A DNA stretch of 64,000 bases from Nanohaloarchaea archaeon SW_7_43_1 (GTDB lineage Archaea > Nanohalarchaeota > Nanosalinia > Nanosalinales > Nanosalinaceae), in NCBI GenBank assembly GCA_003009795.1, contig PXPE01000001.1:384739-448738 (forward strand), read 5' to 3'. Shown piece after piece: positions 47,720-53,573 of this stretch. Both the position numbers and the translations under genes were made by a program. The notes below the pieces were generated by a model. The model ran no database searches, was not told the origin of the DNA, and saw nothing but the letters and a program-made list of their open reading frames with translations. The stretch's first letter is position 1; every line of letters begins with the position of its first letter.

Positions 47720-47872
47720 TTAGTTCTGGTCTTCCATCTGTTTTTTGGTTTTCCGTCTATATTCTCCATATCTATCCGGGTAAGAGAATTTTGGCGGTCT
47801 TGCAGTTTCTGTATCTGTACAGTGTTCCTGCTTCAGTGTATATGAGTTACATTCTGGACATTTTTTAATCAT
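47720..47872 (-). CDS. nop10: H/ACA RNP protein Nop10
   Basis: 50 residues. IKKCPECNSYTLKQEHC with the zinc-like ribbon, then TARPPKFSYPDRYGEYRRK, are typical Nop10. It is a core part of H/ACA particles that guide pseudouridylation together with Cbf5, Gar1 and L7Ae. Position between aIF2alpha and PAC2 is the standard archaeal row. Confidence 0.93.
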   Translation of the reverse strand: MIKKCPECNSYTLKQEHCTDTETARPPKFSYPDRYGEYRRKTKKQMEDQN

Positions 47873-47880
47873 AGGAGAAC

Positions 47881-48633
47881 TCACGCCTTCGAGAATTCGA
47901 ATTTTCCGCCCAGTTCTTCGGCTTTTTCCCTGAACTCTTCAACAGCTTTATCCATCCTTTTCTTGGCCAGTTCCTGGTTTCTTCCCCATGCAGTTGCAGA
48001 ATACTTCGGTGCTGACACATACTTTATATCAATGGCTTCAAACTCCTTGAATGTATCTTTTATCCGGTCTACCCCATTACCTTGATGGAACTCGAGTTTA
48101 ATCTCTCCCTCAAGTTTTTCCTGTTTCAGGTTGATGTTTTCCTCGGCGACTTCCTTTATCGCCTCTACTGTCTCTTCATCGAACATTTCCTGTAGCTTTT
48201 CCTCCTTTCCTACCGCGATTTCGAAGCCGTGGAAGGCCGAGCCGAACTCTTTCTGGAGCTCGAATGCTATTTCTTCATACGCTCCATCTTTTGAAATATT
48301 AAGTTTTTCTCCCAGTTCCTCTACGAAGCTGTCCGCCTTTTTCTCCTTGTTCAATCGAGACATTGCATCTCTTTTCTGGTTCTCGTTAACTCTTTTCAGC
48401 GAGAGATCCACTGTATCATCTTCGTTTTCAACTACTTGTGCGACCGTTTTCTCTCCTTCTGAAATCTCCTTGCCGACATCCTGCACCCATGAACGTGAGA
48501 CCTCAGATATGTGGATAAGTCCAGAAACATCACCGTATTCGTCAAGGTCTGCGTAAGCCGAGTTCTTATCAGCATCAGTTATAGTTATGACCACGAAATC
48601 TCCGACTTCGGGTCTATCTTTGTACCATCTCAT
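47881..48633 (-). CDS. eif2a: Translation initiation factor aIF2, alpha subunit
   Basis: 250 residues. N-terminal S1 fold (KDRPEVGDFVVITITDADKN, DVSGLIHISEVSRSWVQDV), a helical middle and the C-terminal alpha-beta domain (RIKDTFKEFEAIDIKYVSAP). Binds initiator Met-tRNA with aIF2beta/gamma. Co-transcribed with eS27 and eL42. Confidence 0.95.
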   Translation of the reverse strand: MRWYKDRPEVGDFVVITITDADKNSAYADLDEYGDVSGLIHISEVSRSWVQDVGKEISEGEKTVAQVVENEDDTVDLSLKRVNENQKRDAMSRLNKEKKADSFVEELGEKLNISKDGAYEEIAFELQKEFGSAFHGFEIAVGKEEKLQEMFDEETVEAIKEVAEENINLKQEKLEGEIKLEFHQGNGVDRIKDTFKEFEAIDIKYVSAPKYSATAWGRNQELAKKRMDKAVEEFREKAEELGGKFEFSKA

Positions 48634-48779: not shown

Positions 48780-48953
48780 TTACTCTGCTTTAAGTTCTTC
48801 TGCTATTTCTCCATTCACGTCTGCCTTGCCGCCGGTAGGGGTTGCGAGTTCTTCGCTGCACACTAGACATTCAACCTTTGTTGATGCATGTGAGAAGATC
48901 TTCTGCTCATTACCGCATTCGCTGCATTTTACCCTGTAGAAATCTCTGGCCAT
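48780..48953 (-). CDS. rps27e: Ribosomal protein eS27
   Basis: 57 residues. FYRVKCSECGNEQKIFSHA and VECLVCSEELATPTGGKADV carry the CxxC pairs of the S27e zinc ribbon. Between eL42 and aIF2alpha in the usual order. Confidence 0.95.
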   Translation of the reverse strand: MARDFYRVKCSECGNEQKIFSHASTKVECLVCSEELATPTGGKADVNGEIAEELKAE

Positions 48954-49938: not shown

Positions 49939-50553
49939 TTAGCTTTCCACCTTTTCTGCGTTTCCTCTGTTAACCAGTATATCCGCGTTTTCTTCAGGCA
50001 GTTCAGCTTTCTCCCCTTCTTCAAAAGGTCCGTAGGATTCAAGATCGGTCCCCATGAACTCTGGCACCTCCGATATGATTTCCACTTTTTCGTATCCTTC
50101 CTCTGTAGAAGTTTCAGTTACATCTATATCGTCATCTGTTTCTTCATTTTCCTCCATCTCTATCTCAGATTCTTCCTCAATATCAGGAGTTTCAACTTTA
50201 TCTGAATCGCCCTCGATTACTTCATCAATACTGGCGGAGTATTCTTTGAATCTTTCCTTGATATCGCGGAAGAATTCCTGTTCTCGGGGAAGAAGATTTA
50301 ATTTGCTGCTTTTAACATCAGACTTCACAGATATTTTGGCGTTCTTGACTATCTTTTCCTGTCGAAGCCCGATTATTTTCTCGAAAACCCTCTTTGCGTT
50401 CTTGTATTCTCTGTTGTCAACTCCTTCTTTTCTTTCAATGTACTCGGAGACTCTCAGAAGAAAGTTGTCTTCTAGTTCGGATAGCTTATCCTGTCTTTTC
50501 TCTGTCTTCTGTATCTTTCTTAAATCGCTGAAGGTCAGTGCTTCGTCTCCCAT
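49939..50553 (-). CDS. GINS-family replication protein (Gins51-like)
   Basis: 204 residues. EYIERKEGVDNREYKNAKRVFEKIIGLRQEKIVKNA is the A-domain helix bundle; the short B-domain is FMGTDLESYGPFEEGEKAEL with LPEENADILVNRGNAEKV. An acidic disordered linker (~45 residues) joins them. GINS links MCM to the rest of the replisome; here it lies directly downstream of the primase, as in many archaea. Confidence 0.87.
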   Translation of the reverse strand: MGDEALTFSDLRKIQKTEKRQDKLSELEDNFLLRVSEYIERKEGVDNREYKNAKRVFEKIIGLRQEKIVKNAKISVKSDVKSSKLNLLPREQEFFRDIKERFKEYSASIDEVIEGDSDKVETPDIEEESEIEMEENEETDDDIDVTETSTEEGYEKVEIISEVPEFMGTDLESYGPFEEGEKAELPEENADILVNRGNAEKVES

Positions 50554-50596: not shown

Positions 50597-51997
50597 CTAC
50601 AGCTTTTTGACCTTGTCATCTTCCTGGCATTTCTGGACGTGTTTCCTGTAGTAACTCTCCATCTCGTATTCCTTGCCGCAGTAGGGACACTCCATTATCT
50701 CCTTCTCATCGTTGTTCTCATCTTTCTCGCTTTCCGGGTCTCTCTTATTTGCCTGCCGGAAGGCATAGCTGACAGGGTTTGTTACCTGTTCTTCAATGTG
50801 GTCTCCCTCATATACTTGCATGTCCTCGTAATAACCATTGGAATCGTAGTTGGGAGGAGGTACATCCTCGTCTCGGCGTCTGTGCCATCTTAACTGAGTT
50901 TTGATGTAGGTATCGGAGAGCGCTTCCTCATTCCGTTCGTTCCACTCCCAGATTTTGGATTCGATCTGTTCCCAGGAGTATCCGACGGTTCTCAGAAAAT
51001 TGAGGAGTATGAATAATCCACGTTTTCTACCGTCCTCAAGGCCTTCCAGAACATTGTTTATAGTAGGTGGGAAGTACTTCTCCGGTATCGCGTCCTCAGG
51101 TCTTTCAAAGTCTCTCTCCGATCTCTCTATTCTTTCCTCTTTTTTCTGCTCTCTTCTCTTCTCAATGTAGTCCATCGCCTGAACGGCCAGATTCGCCGCC
51201 TCGCCAACCTCGTATTCGTGAAGAAACCGTGTCTTAAAATCGATATTATCCATTTCTGCGTCTTTTTTCTCAAATTCCTCCAGTTTCCCTATCTCTATAG
51301 GTTTGGATACCAGCCAGCTTCCATCATGGAGAGAGTAAGGCATTCGGAAAAGATGTCGTGAACCCCAGTCATTCTCGATATCCGATACCTGGTAAGGATC
51401 TAAGCCCCCGTCAGTCTCCATTTCCTCATCGAATCCATGTTCCTTGACAAGCTGTATCATTTCGTCCTTGATATTCTCCCGGACATAATTTACTATGCCC
51501 TGGGGAAGCTCAGGGTAATGTTTTGAAATATGGTCTCCGCCGATTGTCTCCGGAAATGCTTCCCCTCTAAAACCTATATGGAATCCGCGGTTACCTGAAA
51601 ACTTGATGCTTATATTCTCGATTCCGTGTTCGTTTAACTCCTCTATAACTAGTTTTGCGGTATCTTTGGAGAGTTCAAAGGAGTAGTCACAGTCAATATC
51701 TATTACGAGATCCCAGCCTTCTCTCAGCTTGTCAGCGTCGTTAACTTTATCGATCAAAAGCGGATTTCTCCATTTCTCTACCGATGAATGGAAAGCCACT
51801 GCGCCGTTTTCAACTAGCTGTTTAAAATCTCCCGGGAAGTTGACGGCGTCCGGTCTTTTTCCGTAGCCTTTCAGGTAAGTTGGAGCGATTTCCCTATATT
51901 CAGAAACTTCAACTACGCGTTCAACTAATTCTTTCTGTTCGTAATACTGCCTTATTTTCCAGTCCTGCGGTTTCTCTCTGCTCCCTTCATCCGCCAT
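50597..51997 (-). CDS. priS: DNA primase with fused small and large subunit parts, lacking Fe-S cysteines
   Basis: 466 residues, about 100 more than a normal PriS. The N-terminal part has IDIDCDYSFELSK (catalytic Asp pair) and IKFSGNRGFHIGFRG, the PriS core. From ~325 the text PPTINNVLEGLEDGRKRGLF, LLNFLRTVGYSWEQI and KTQLRWHRRRD resembles the PriL C-terminal domain, but none of the four cysteines that hold PriL's 4Fe-4S cluster is present. The C-terminus is a C2HC finger (ECPYCGKEYEMESYYRKHVQKC pattern, split CxxC...HxxxxC). Fused one-gene primases are known in Nanoarchaeum and other DPANN. Confidence 0.85.
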   Translation of the reverse strand: MADEGSREKPQDWKIRQYYEQKELVERVVEVSEYREIAPTYLKGYGKRPDAVNFPGDFKQLVENGAVAFHSSVEKWRNPLLIDKVNDADKLREGWDLVIDIDCDYSFELSKDTAKLVIEELNEHGIENISIKFSGNRGFHIGFRGEAFPETIGGDHISKHYPELPQGIVNYVRENIKDEMIQLVKEHGFDEEMETDGGLDPYQVSDIENDWGSRHLFRMPYSLHDGSWLVSKPIEIGKLEEFEKKDAEMDNIDFKTRFLHEYEVGEAANLAVQAMDYIEKRREQKKEERIERSERDFERPEDAIPEKYFPPTINNVLEGLEDGRKRGLFILLNFLRTVGYSWEQIESKIWEWNERNEEALSDTYIKTQLRWHRRRDEDVPPPNYDSNGYYEDMQVYEGDHIEEQVTNPVSYAFRQANKRDPESEKDENNDEKEIMECPYCGKEYEMESYYRKHVQKCQEDDKVKKL

Positions 51998-52052: not shown

Positions 52053-52427
52053 CTATTCTTCCTCGAAGTCAAGAGCTATCGAGTTGATGCAGTATCTTTT
52101 CCCGGTTGGTTCCGGACCGTCATCGAATACATGTCCGAGATGTGAATCGCAGTTGGAGCATGTTACCTCAGTTCTATCCATGCTGTGGCGGTCATCTTCT
52201 TGAAACTCGATTGATCCTTCGATTGCATCGTAAAAACTTGGCCATCCGGAACCAGAGCTGAATTTTGTATCTGAGTCAAATATTTCCTGTCCACACGCTT
52301 TACAGCAGTAATTTCCATCCTCTTTCTGATCAAGATATTTACCTGTTCCTCTGGTCTCAGTTCCTTTTTCTCTCAGGACTTCGTATTCTTCCTCGGATAG
52401 TTCTTCTTTCCAGTCTTTCTCTTTCAT
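52053..52427 (-). CDS. msrB: Peptide-methionine (R)-S-oxide reductase MsrB
   Basis: 124 residues. Zinc pairs CCKACG and CSNC, the substrate motif SGSGWPSFYD, the block GHVFDDGPEPTGKRYCINS with the catalytic Cys in RYC. Repairs oxidised methionine. Overlaps the small gene upstream by four bases. Confidence 0.94.
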   Translation of the reverse strand: MKEKDWKEELSEEEYEVLREKGTETRGTGKYLDQKEDGNYCCKACGQEIFDSDTKFSSGSGWPSFYDAIEGSIEFQEDDRHSMDRTEVTCSNCDSHLGHVFDDGPEPTGKRYCINSIALDFEEE

Positions 52428-52806: not shown

Positions 52807-53559
52807 TTAATCTTCTTCAATGCGTGGTGCGAGTACGAAGCTGAGCCTTGCTTTTTCAGGGACTTCGAAGTTGAGTCTCATCGGGAAGTCATTTCCGAGT
52901 CTCAACTGAAGTGTGTCGCTGAGTTTTTTGGCGCCTGTGATTGAGTTAAGATAGTCAAGAGAGAACATTGACTTACACTGTGATCCTTCGATCTCCATCA
53001 ATCCTTCGCTTCCTTCCTGAATATTGAACTTAACGTTGCTTTGATCTCCTTCTGCCTCGATTGTAAGTGAGTCCCCGTCTGATGATACTGTCACCGAGTC
53101 TCCTACAACCATTGCATCCTTGATAGCGCTTTCAAGCACAGAAGTCTCTAGGTCTGCTGTTACGTCGAAATCCAGCTGGTCTGTTGATGGGATGTCGTCC
53201 TCTGAAAGGTTGAGTATAGGCAGTGAAAAGTCTCTGGTAGATGAGTCCTCCATTTTTATGTAGAATTTGGACTCGTCTTCCTTTACCTCAAAAGTTAATG
53301 TATCACCTGAGTTTGCTCTTCTTAGAATCGAGTAAAAGTTTTCTAGGTTAAGTCCTACCTTGGTTTCCTCGTCTAGATCATAGCCCTCGAATACATCTTC
53401 TTCCAGTTTGAAGTCTACAAGAGCGACCATCGCAGGATCTGCTGCGATTAGATGGATTCCGTCTTCTTTCAGTTGGAAAAGCCCTTCTGAAATCAGATCT
53501 GATATGGTTTTTAATGAATCCTGTACAAGTCCTACATTTTCTAGTTCAGCTTTAAACAT
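52807..53559 (-). CDS. pcn: DNA polymerase sliding clamp PCNA
   Basis: 250 residues from the ATG at 53559, three codons inside the longest frame; GAGAGGA just upstream is a good ribosome binding site. FKAELENVGLVQDSLKTI, AADPAMVALVDFKL, MKLEDSS-like MEDSSTRDFSLPIL and the end FVLAPRIEED are diagnostic. Trimeric clamp for polymerase, RNase HII, ligase and FEN1. Very acidic. Confidence 0.96.
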   Translation of the reverse strand: MFKAELENVGLVQDSLKTISDLISEGLFQLKEDGIHLIAADPAMVALVDFKLEEDVFEGYDLDEETKVGLNLENFYSILRRANSGDTLTFEVKEDESKFYIKMEDSSTRDFSLPILNLSEDDIPSTDQLDFDVTADLETSVLESAIKDAMVVGDSVTVSSDGDSLTIEAEGDQSNVKFNIQEGSEGLMEIEGSQCKSMFSLDYLNSITGAKKLSDTLQLRLGNDFPMRLNFEVPEKARLSFVLAPRIEED

Positions 53560-53573
53560 TCCTCTCACCGTTA

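Follow-up and report, generated by a model that had tools for sequence, protein, structure and literature searches.

The protein encoded at positions 50,597 to 51,997 on the minus strand of the window (the whole stretch of DNA that was analysed, 64,000 nucleotides) is a single-chain DNA primase that joins an intact PriS catalytic core to a helix-bundle domain best read as a PriL C-terminal domain (PriL-CTD), at which all four ligands of the 4Fe-4S cluster are replaced. We consider it very likely that the replicative primase of this tiny halophilic archaeon is of the DPANN type, a single chain of PriS core and PriL-CTD that in Nanohaloarchaeota has lost the cluster and kept the initiating-nucleotide pocket, with the helix bundle holding the 5′ NTP for the linked PriS. 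More broadly, the DPANN replicative primase has probably lost its 4Fe-4S cluster repeatedly and completely, one or more times in Nanohaloarchaeota and on several occasions elsewhere; each loss would have left the entire PriL-CTD scaffold and the motif for the initiating NTP in place, and no substitute metal site would have arisen.

A fused primase in a replication-translation cluster

The source genome is a single contig of 956,550 bases (98.95% complete), whose closest named relative is Nanohaloarchaea archaeon SW_4_43_9 (95% identity). The open reading frame has an ATG start and zero internal stops, and is far beyond chance because it is conserved in 26 of the 28 genomes of the phylum. It runs from the PriS core through a charged linker into the PriL-CTD-like helix bundle and then a C2HC finger. 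The features of the gene and its neighbours are as follows:

52807..53568, minus strand: PCNA, neighbour (PF00705 and PF02747)
50597..51997, minus strand: single-chain (fused) DNA primase, PriS, PriL-CTD-like domain and C2HC finger, 466 aa
51218..51730, minus strand: PriS catalytic core, residues 90-260, with D100/D102, H140, D206, H215 and R218 (PF01896)
51101..51196, minus strand: charged helical linker from the PriS core to the helix-bundle domain, residues 268-299
50738..51100, minus strand: PriL-CTD-like helix-bundle domain, cysteine-free, residues 300-420 (PF04104, 9f26_B)
51062..51064, minus strand: Fe-S ligand position 1, FPPC changed to FPPT312
51020..51034, minus strand: DGRKR, residues 322-326, sequence counterpart of the PriX initiating-NTP motif D70-x-R72-K73-R74
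50846..50848, minus strand: Fe-S ligand position 2, PPNC changed to PPNY384
50810..50812, minus strand: Fe-S ligand position 3, (I/V)C changed to VY396
50792..50794, minus strand: Fe-S ligand position 4, LC changed to IE402
50627..50689, minus strand: C2HC finger CPYCGKEYEMESYYRKHVQKC, residues 437-457
49939..50553, minus strand: GINS subunit (Gins51/Gins15-type), neighbour (PF22090, E=8.6e-17)
48780-48953: S27e, named by eye
47720-47884: Nop10, named by eye

The gene lies within the conserved cluster of PCNA, primase, GINS, L44e, S27e, aIF2alpha and Nop10 (for comparison, PMC2643942), and because of this position we take the fused primase to be the replicative primase. Two further genes are inserted into the otherwise classic cluster: an amino-acid-kinase family gene (PF00696; 49302-50042, minus strand) and a SelR/MsrB gene (52053-52427, minus strand).

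The PriS core, which an earlier note on this DNA had called intact, is indeed so: PF01896 matches residues 109-236 at the curated cut-off (E=7.4e-6); D100, D102, H140, H215 and R218 are identical in 95 of 95 fused primases; and the motif III position, D206, is D or E in 71 of the 95. Motif I (DhD), motif II (sxH) and motif III (D/E) are all present, the third having been aligned with residues 304-324 of human PriS, and a genome search found the PriS gene in single copy. The PriS zinc motif, reported to be dispensable in Sulfolobus PriS (PMC3973330), is absent from the window primase and from most of the 95 fused primases. The whole protein contains exactly four cysteines: C103, the only one in the PriS part, which lies in motif I and is invariant in alignment A1, and C437, C440 and C457 of the finger.

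The linker is variable in alignment A1, and a low-confidence model predicts a helix at residues 268-293. After the finger, an acidic stretch leads to a tail (50600-50615, minus strand) that ends in VKKL, VKKI or VRKI in many family members and is possibly a partner-binding peptide. Some relatives depart from the common architecture. In a genome of the same family, two overlapping ORFs in different reading frames (L035/L037, G021:C7:633709-635053) together encode the primase, one a 308 aa PriS part and the other a 183 aa helix bundle plus finger; either this is a frameshift error, or the protein has naturally reverted to a two-subunit state. L100 (G231:C66) is a 968 aa fused primase that carries at PriS motif I an intein-like insertion of about 510 aa (C at its start, HN at its end, then C); and L101, L102, L103 and L107 carry zinc-ribbon insertions (CxxC pairs) in PriS ahead of motif III, which are absent from the other fused primases checked.

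The helix-bundle domain and the loss of its Fe-S ligands

Comparison at the profile level identifies residues 300-420 as, most plausibly, a whole PriL-CTD without its cluster and not a PriX. The sole PF04104 match in the whole source genome falls inside the fused ORF (E=0.006) and covers the later PriL segment only; the window CTD alone, as a single sequence, scores E=0.07, below the cut-off. PF04104 likewise matches the equivalent stretch of the fused primase in most genomes of the phylum. Alignment A3, a 20-member family alignment of the helix-bundle CTD whose other members are 35-57% identical to that of the window, gives the clearest picture: PF04104 matches 20 of 20 CTDs (best 1.1e-8) and is the sole family matched by all of them, and three cysteine-bearing members score above its curated cut-off; the A3 profile matches the solved PriL 9f26_B (E=6.8e-7) in two collinear segments, FPPC and PPNC...LC...HC, which align with the four ligand positions; and the same profile finds one copy only in the source genome (E=6e-56). 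Within the window's family, about half of the columns of alignment A2 are invariant, a strong conservation of the cysteine-less domain which shows it to be under constraint. The fold assignment rests on sequence because the structural models were poor and the fold searches gave no significant match: AlphaFold reached a mean pLDDT of 56.5 for the whole protein and 55.9 for the domain with a 10-row alignment, a low confidence too poor to use; Foldseek against the PDB with the low-confidence whole-protein model returned mainly PriS/Prim-Pol matches (best E=0.014); and the low-confidence domain model returned no significant PriL or PriX match, with the eukaryotic PriL Fe-S domain 6du0 and RepB' among the noise.

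The earlier note had read the protein as a one-chain PriS-PriL primase whose PriL-like part lacks the Fe-S cysteines. Both domains do lie in the one ORF, and a search of the rest of the genome with PF04104 and the A3 profile found no separate priL gene; the PriL-like part consists of the C-terminal domain of PriL, its N-terminal domain being absent. The four ligand positions are occupied by T312, Y384, Y396 and E402: where the order-mate L030 (family f2) has FPPC, PPNC, LLIC and SLC, the window primase has FPPT, PPNY, QVY and HIE. As close relatives carry four ligands, the cluster-less state is derived here.

Cluster loss is common to nearly the whole phylum, recurs elsewhere, and is not specific to the source genome. 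Among the phylum sequences, 24 of 25 have none of the four ligand cysteines and one has all four, and the other fused DPANN primases (n=70) divide into 59 with all four, five with three, four with two, and one each with a single cysteine and with none. A second sample, picked for low profile score or single contigs and biased towards divergence, added 14 further ligand-free primases, mostly of family f169, in which L120, L125 and L140 keep all four cysteines. A 108-sequence tree (a quick tree with many weak forks) requires a minimum of seven changes between the zero- and four-cysteine states; this tree and that of 95 rows were built without the cysteine columns and their flanks. The one-clade topology for the within-phylum loss gives an AU p=0.28; thus a single loss within the phylum is compatible with the tree, and one and two losses both stand.

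A deep DPANN genome that is alone in its phylum here encodes a primase (L109, G042:C2) with two tandem helix-bundle domains after PriS, both without cluster cysteines; DGRKR is kept in the first bundle and not in the second, an arrangement that recalls a PriL-CTD plus PriX pair, and a run of N breaks its PriS part.

The putative initiation motif and alternative readings

In Sulfolobus, the D70-x-R72-K73-R74 motif of PriX grips the triphosphate of the initiating NTP; D70, R72 and R74 bind NTP and are needed for initiation; mutants of the motif lose initiation and keep extension; and priming is normal in a PriX chimera that lacks the Fe-S domain of PriL (PMC5700102). PriL-CTD is considered to have structural orthologues in the helix-bundle domains of the PriX, pRN1 and N. 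equitans primases, which have been suggested to bind initiating nucleotides (PMC11009956). In the fused primases, DGRKR is invariant in A1 and in 20 of 20 A3 rows, whether or not the cysteines are kept; across the 95 sequences D322 and K325 are each found in 94 and R326 in all 95, and position 324 is R or K. By analogy with PriX, the helix bundle would grip the 5′ NTP triphosphate via D322-x-R324-K325-R326, pass the NTP to the active site of PriS (D100, D102, D206), where the dinucleotide would form, and remain bound to the 5′ end during primer extension by PriS. The structural place of the cluster may be filled by ordinary packing involving conserved aromatics, e.g. Y384, Y390 and Y396.

The C-terminal finger offers another candidate for that place. 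Its pattern is CxxC-x12-HxxxC, with C437, C440, H453 and C457 as ligands, so that the finger in the earlier note is present with a spacing of HxxxC (H453, C457) rather than HxxxxC; no good match was found to another gene of the source genome from which it might have been copied (best other E=0.054). The earlier note had also raised the idea that the finger took over from the cluster. On this reading, zinc coordination would provide the structural or template-binding role of the cluster. It is consistent with this idea that finger and cluster loss coincide in f1, to which the window primase belongs, and in f5, and that priming by human PrimPol is stimulated by its zinc finger, for which a Pri2-like role has been proposed (PMC10345425). 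However, the finger is present in f2 as well as in f1 and f5 and absent in f3 and f4, and finger and cysteine states co-occur in the wrong combinations for a replacement: L030 within the phylum, and L039, L054, L059 and L060 outside it (with C2H2 fingers), have the finger together with all four cysteines, whereas both are missing from families f3 and f4 and from the order-mates L031-L034 and L036. Beyond the phylum, the only primases with a finger are those four, whose cysteines are intact, and all cluster-less primases (L069, L131-L135, L138, L139 and L141-L147) are fingerless; an independent-pairs test found no association (p=1, few pairs). We therefore regard replacement of the cluster by the finger as very unlikely; the finger is a separate accessory, gained or lost independently, which probably serves DNA or partner binding.

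It is also highly improbable that the domain is a PriX or a PriCT-type module from mobile elements instead of a PriL-CTD that lost its cluster. A mobile-element source of the fused primase has been proposed (PMC4508532), D-x-R-K-R matches PriX, and PriCT_1 matches five of the 20 A3 members (best 4.4e-4); but PF04104 alone is matched by all 20, PriX reaching at best E=0.089, and the close relatives with four ligands likewise point to PriL. Moreover, the Fe-S_C half (PPNx...NPxxY in general form, PPNY...NPVSY here) is retained, with almost no variation across the window's family. To our knowledge, PriX lacks this half of PriL-CTD.

Two readings in which the cell keeps a cluster fare worse still. 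A metal cluster held by other ligands, either C103 with the finger cysteines or a cluster shared in a dimer, would have to draw on C103 and the three finger cysteines, the only cysteines available, and the invariance of C103 in A1 could be taken in its favour; but C103 belongs to PriS motif I, C437, C440 and C457 form with H453 an ordinary C2HC finger, and L031 and L036 keep the domain with at most one cysteine in the entire protein, which makes such a cluster extremely improbable. That a normal cysteine-bearing PriL was missed through an assembly gap or extreme divergence, or is supplied by a host, is scarcely credible: about 1% of the genome could be absent, but in 28 genomes of the phylum the only PF04104 match above cut-off is part of the fused primase while control archaeal genomes matched above cut-off, the A3 profile finds its single copy, and 12 genomes of at least 90% completeness contradict it. 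The PF04104 search found no other PriL in the source genome and the PF18689 search no PriX; the only eukaryotic-type primase of the cell is the cluster-free single-chain protein.

Relation to known primases and implications

The fused PriS-PriL primase is a known DPANN synapomorphy (PMC7414124), and its use as a lineage marker in the earlier note holds. The window primase is placed among the DPANN fused primases, which are found across many genomes and number more than 400 sequences, in the trees of both 95 and 108 rows. It shares with those of Undinarchaeota, Cluster 2 DPANN and N. equitans (NEQ395, described as monomeric with an HBD; PMC11009956) a single chain of PriS and PriL-CTD that is orthologous across DPANN. 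It has lost the four ligands, which most relatives surveyed keep, and gained a C2HC finger. Compared with the canonical archaeal and eukaryotic PriL C-terminal 4Fe-4S domain (PF04104), the domain has the homologous segment order FPPx ... PPNx ... NPxxY, but lacks the cluster cysteines and the PriL N-terminal domain and is covalently joined to PriS. With PriX of Sulfolobales it shares an Fe-S-free helix bundle with a D-x-R-K-R NTP site (PMC5700102), predicted from sequence in the window primase; however, it belongs to the same chain as PriS, still has the Fe-S_C half, has no Fe-S PriL beside it, and is at most weakly matched by the PriX family (unmatched in the source-genome search, weak with A3). 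The pRN1 ORF904 HBD (PriCT-1) is likewise a cluster-free helix bundle following a PriS-like domain, needed for initiation in ORF904 (PMC11009956, PMC8076596), whereas ORF904 is a plasmid replicase with a helicase and PriCT_1 matches A3 weakly. PolpTN2 of a Thermococcus nautilus plasmid also fuses PriS and PriL in one protein, but keeps the four Fe-S cysteines and lacks the catalytic His (PMC3973330).

Our literature search, which did not reach the central N. equitans primase study, found no report of cluster loss in Nanohaloarchaeota or of its recurrence. Fused DPANN primases and Fe-S-independent priming in Sulfolobus were known already; a cellular single-chain primase that has shed the cluster and kept the initiation motif appears to be new, although priority is uncertain.

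Whether the primase Fe-S cluster is a structural element or a redox switch is debated. Fe-S-independent priming has been published for Sulfolobus (PMC5700102), where the cluster is dispensable because PriX does the job and a cluster-bearing PriL is still present. The window primase is unlike that case: no Fe-S PriL is left in the cell, and the primases of some order-mates are nearly cysteine-free. Family f169 provides in L120/L125 (four cysteines) and L131/L132 (none) a natural matched pair of close relatives; with such near neighbours, L030 included, enzymes with the cluster and enzymes lacking it could be compared directly by biochemistry, all of them small and single-chain. Recurrent loss with the initiation motif kept tells against the cluster having an obligatory role; if our reading is true, the DPANN lineages that have lost it would be natural knock-outs, standing against any obligatory redox-switch role.
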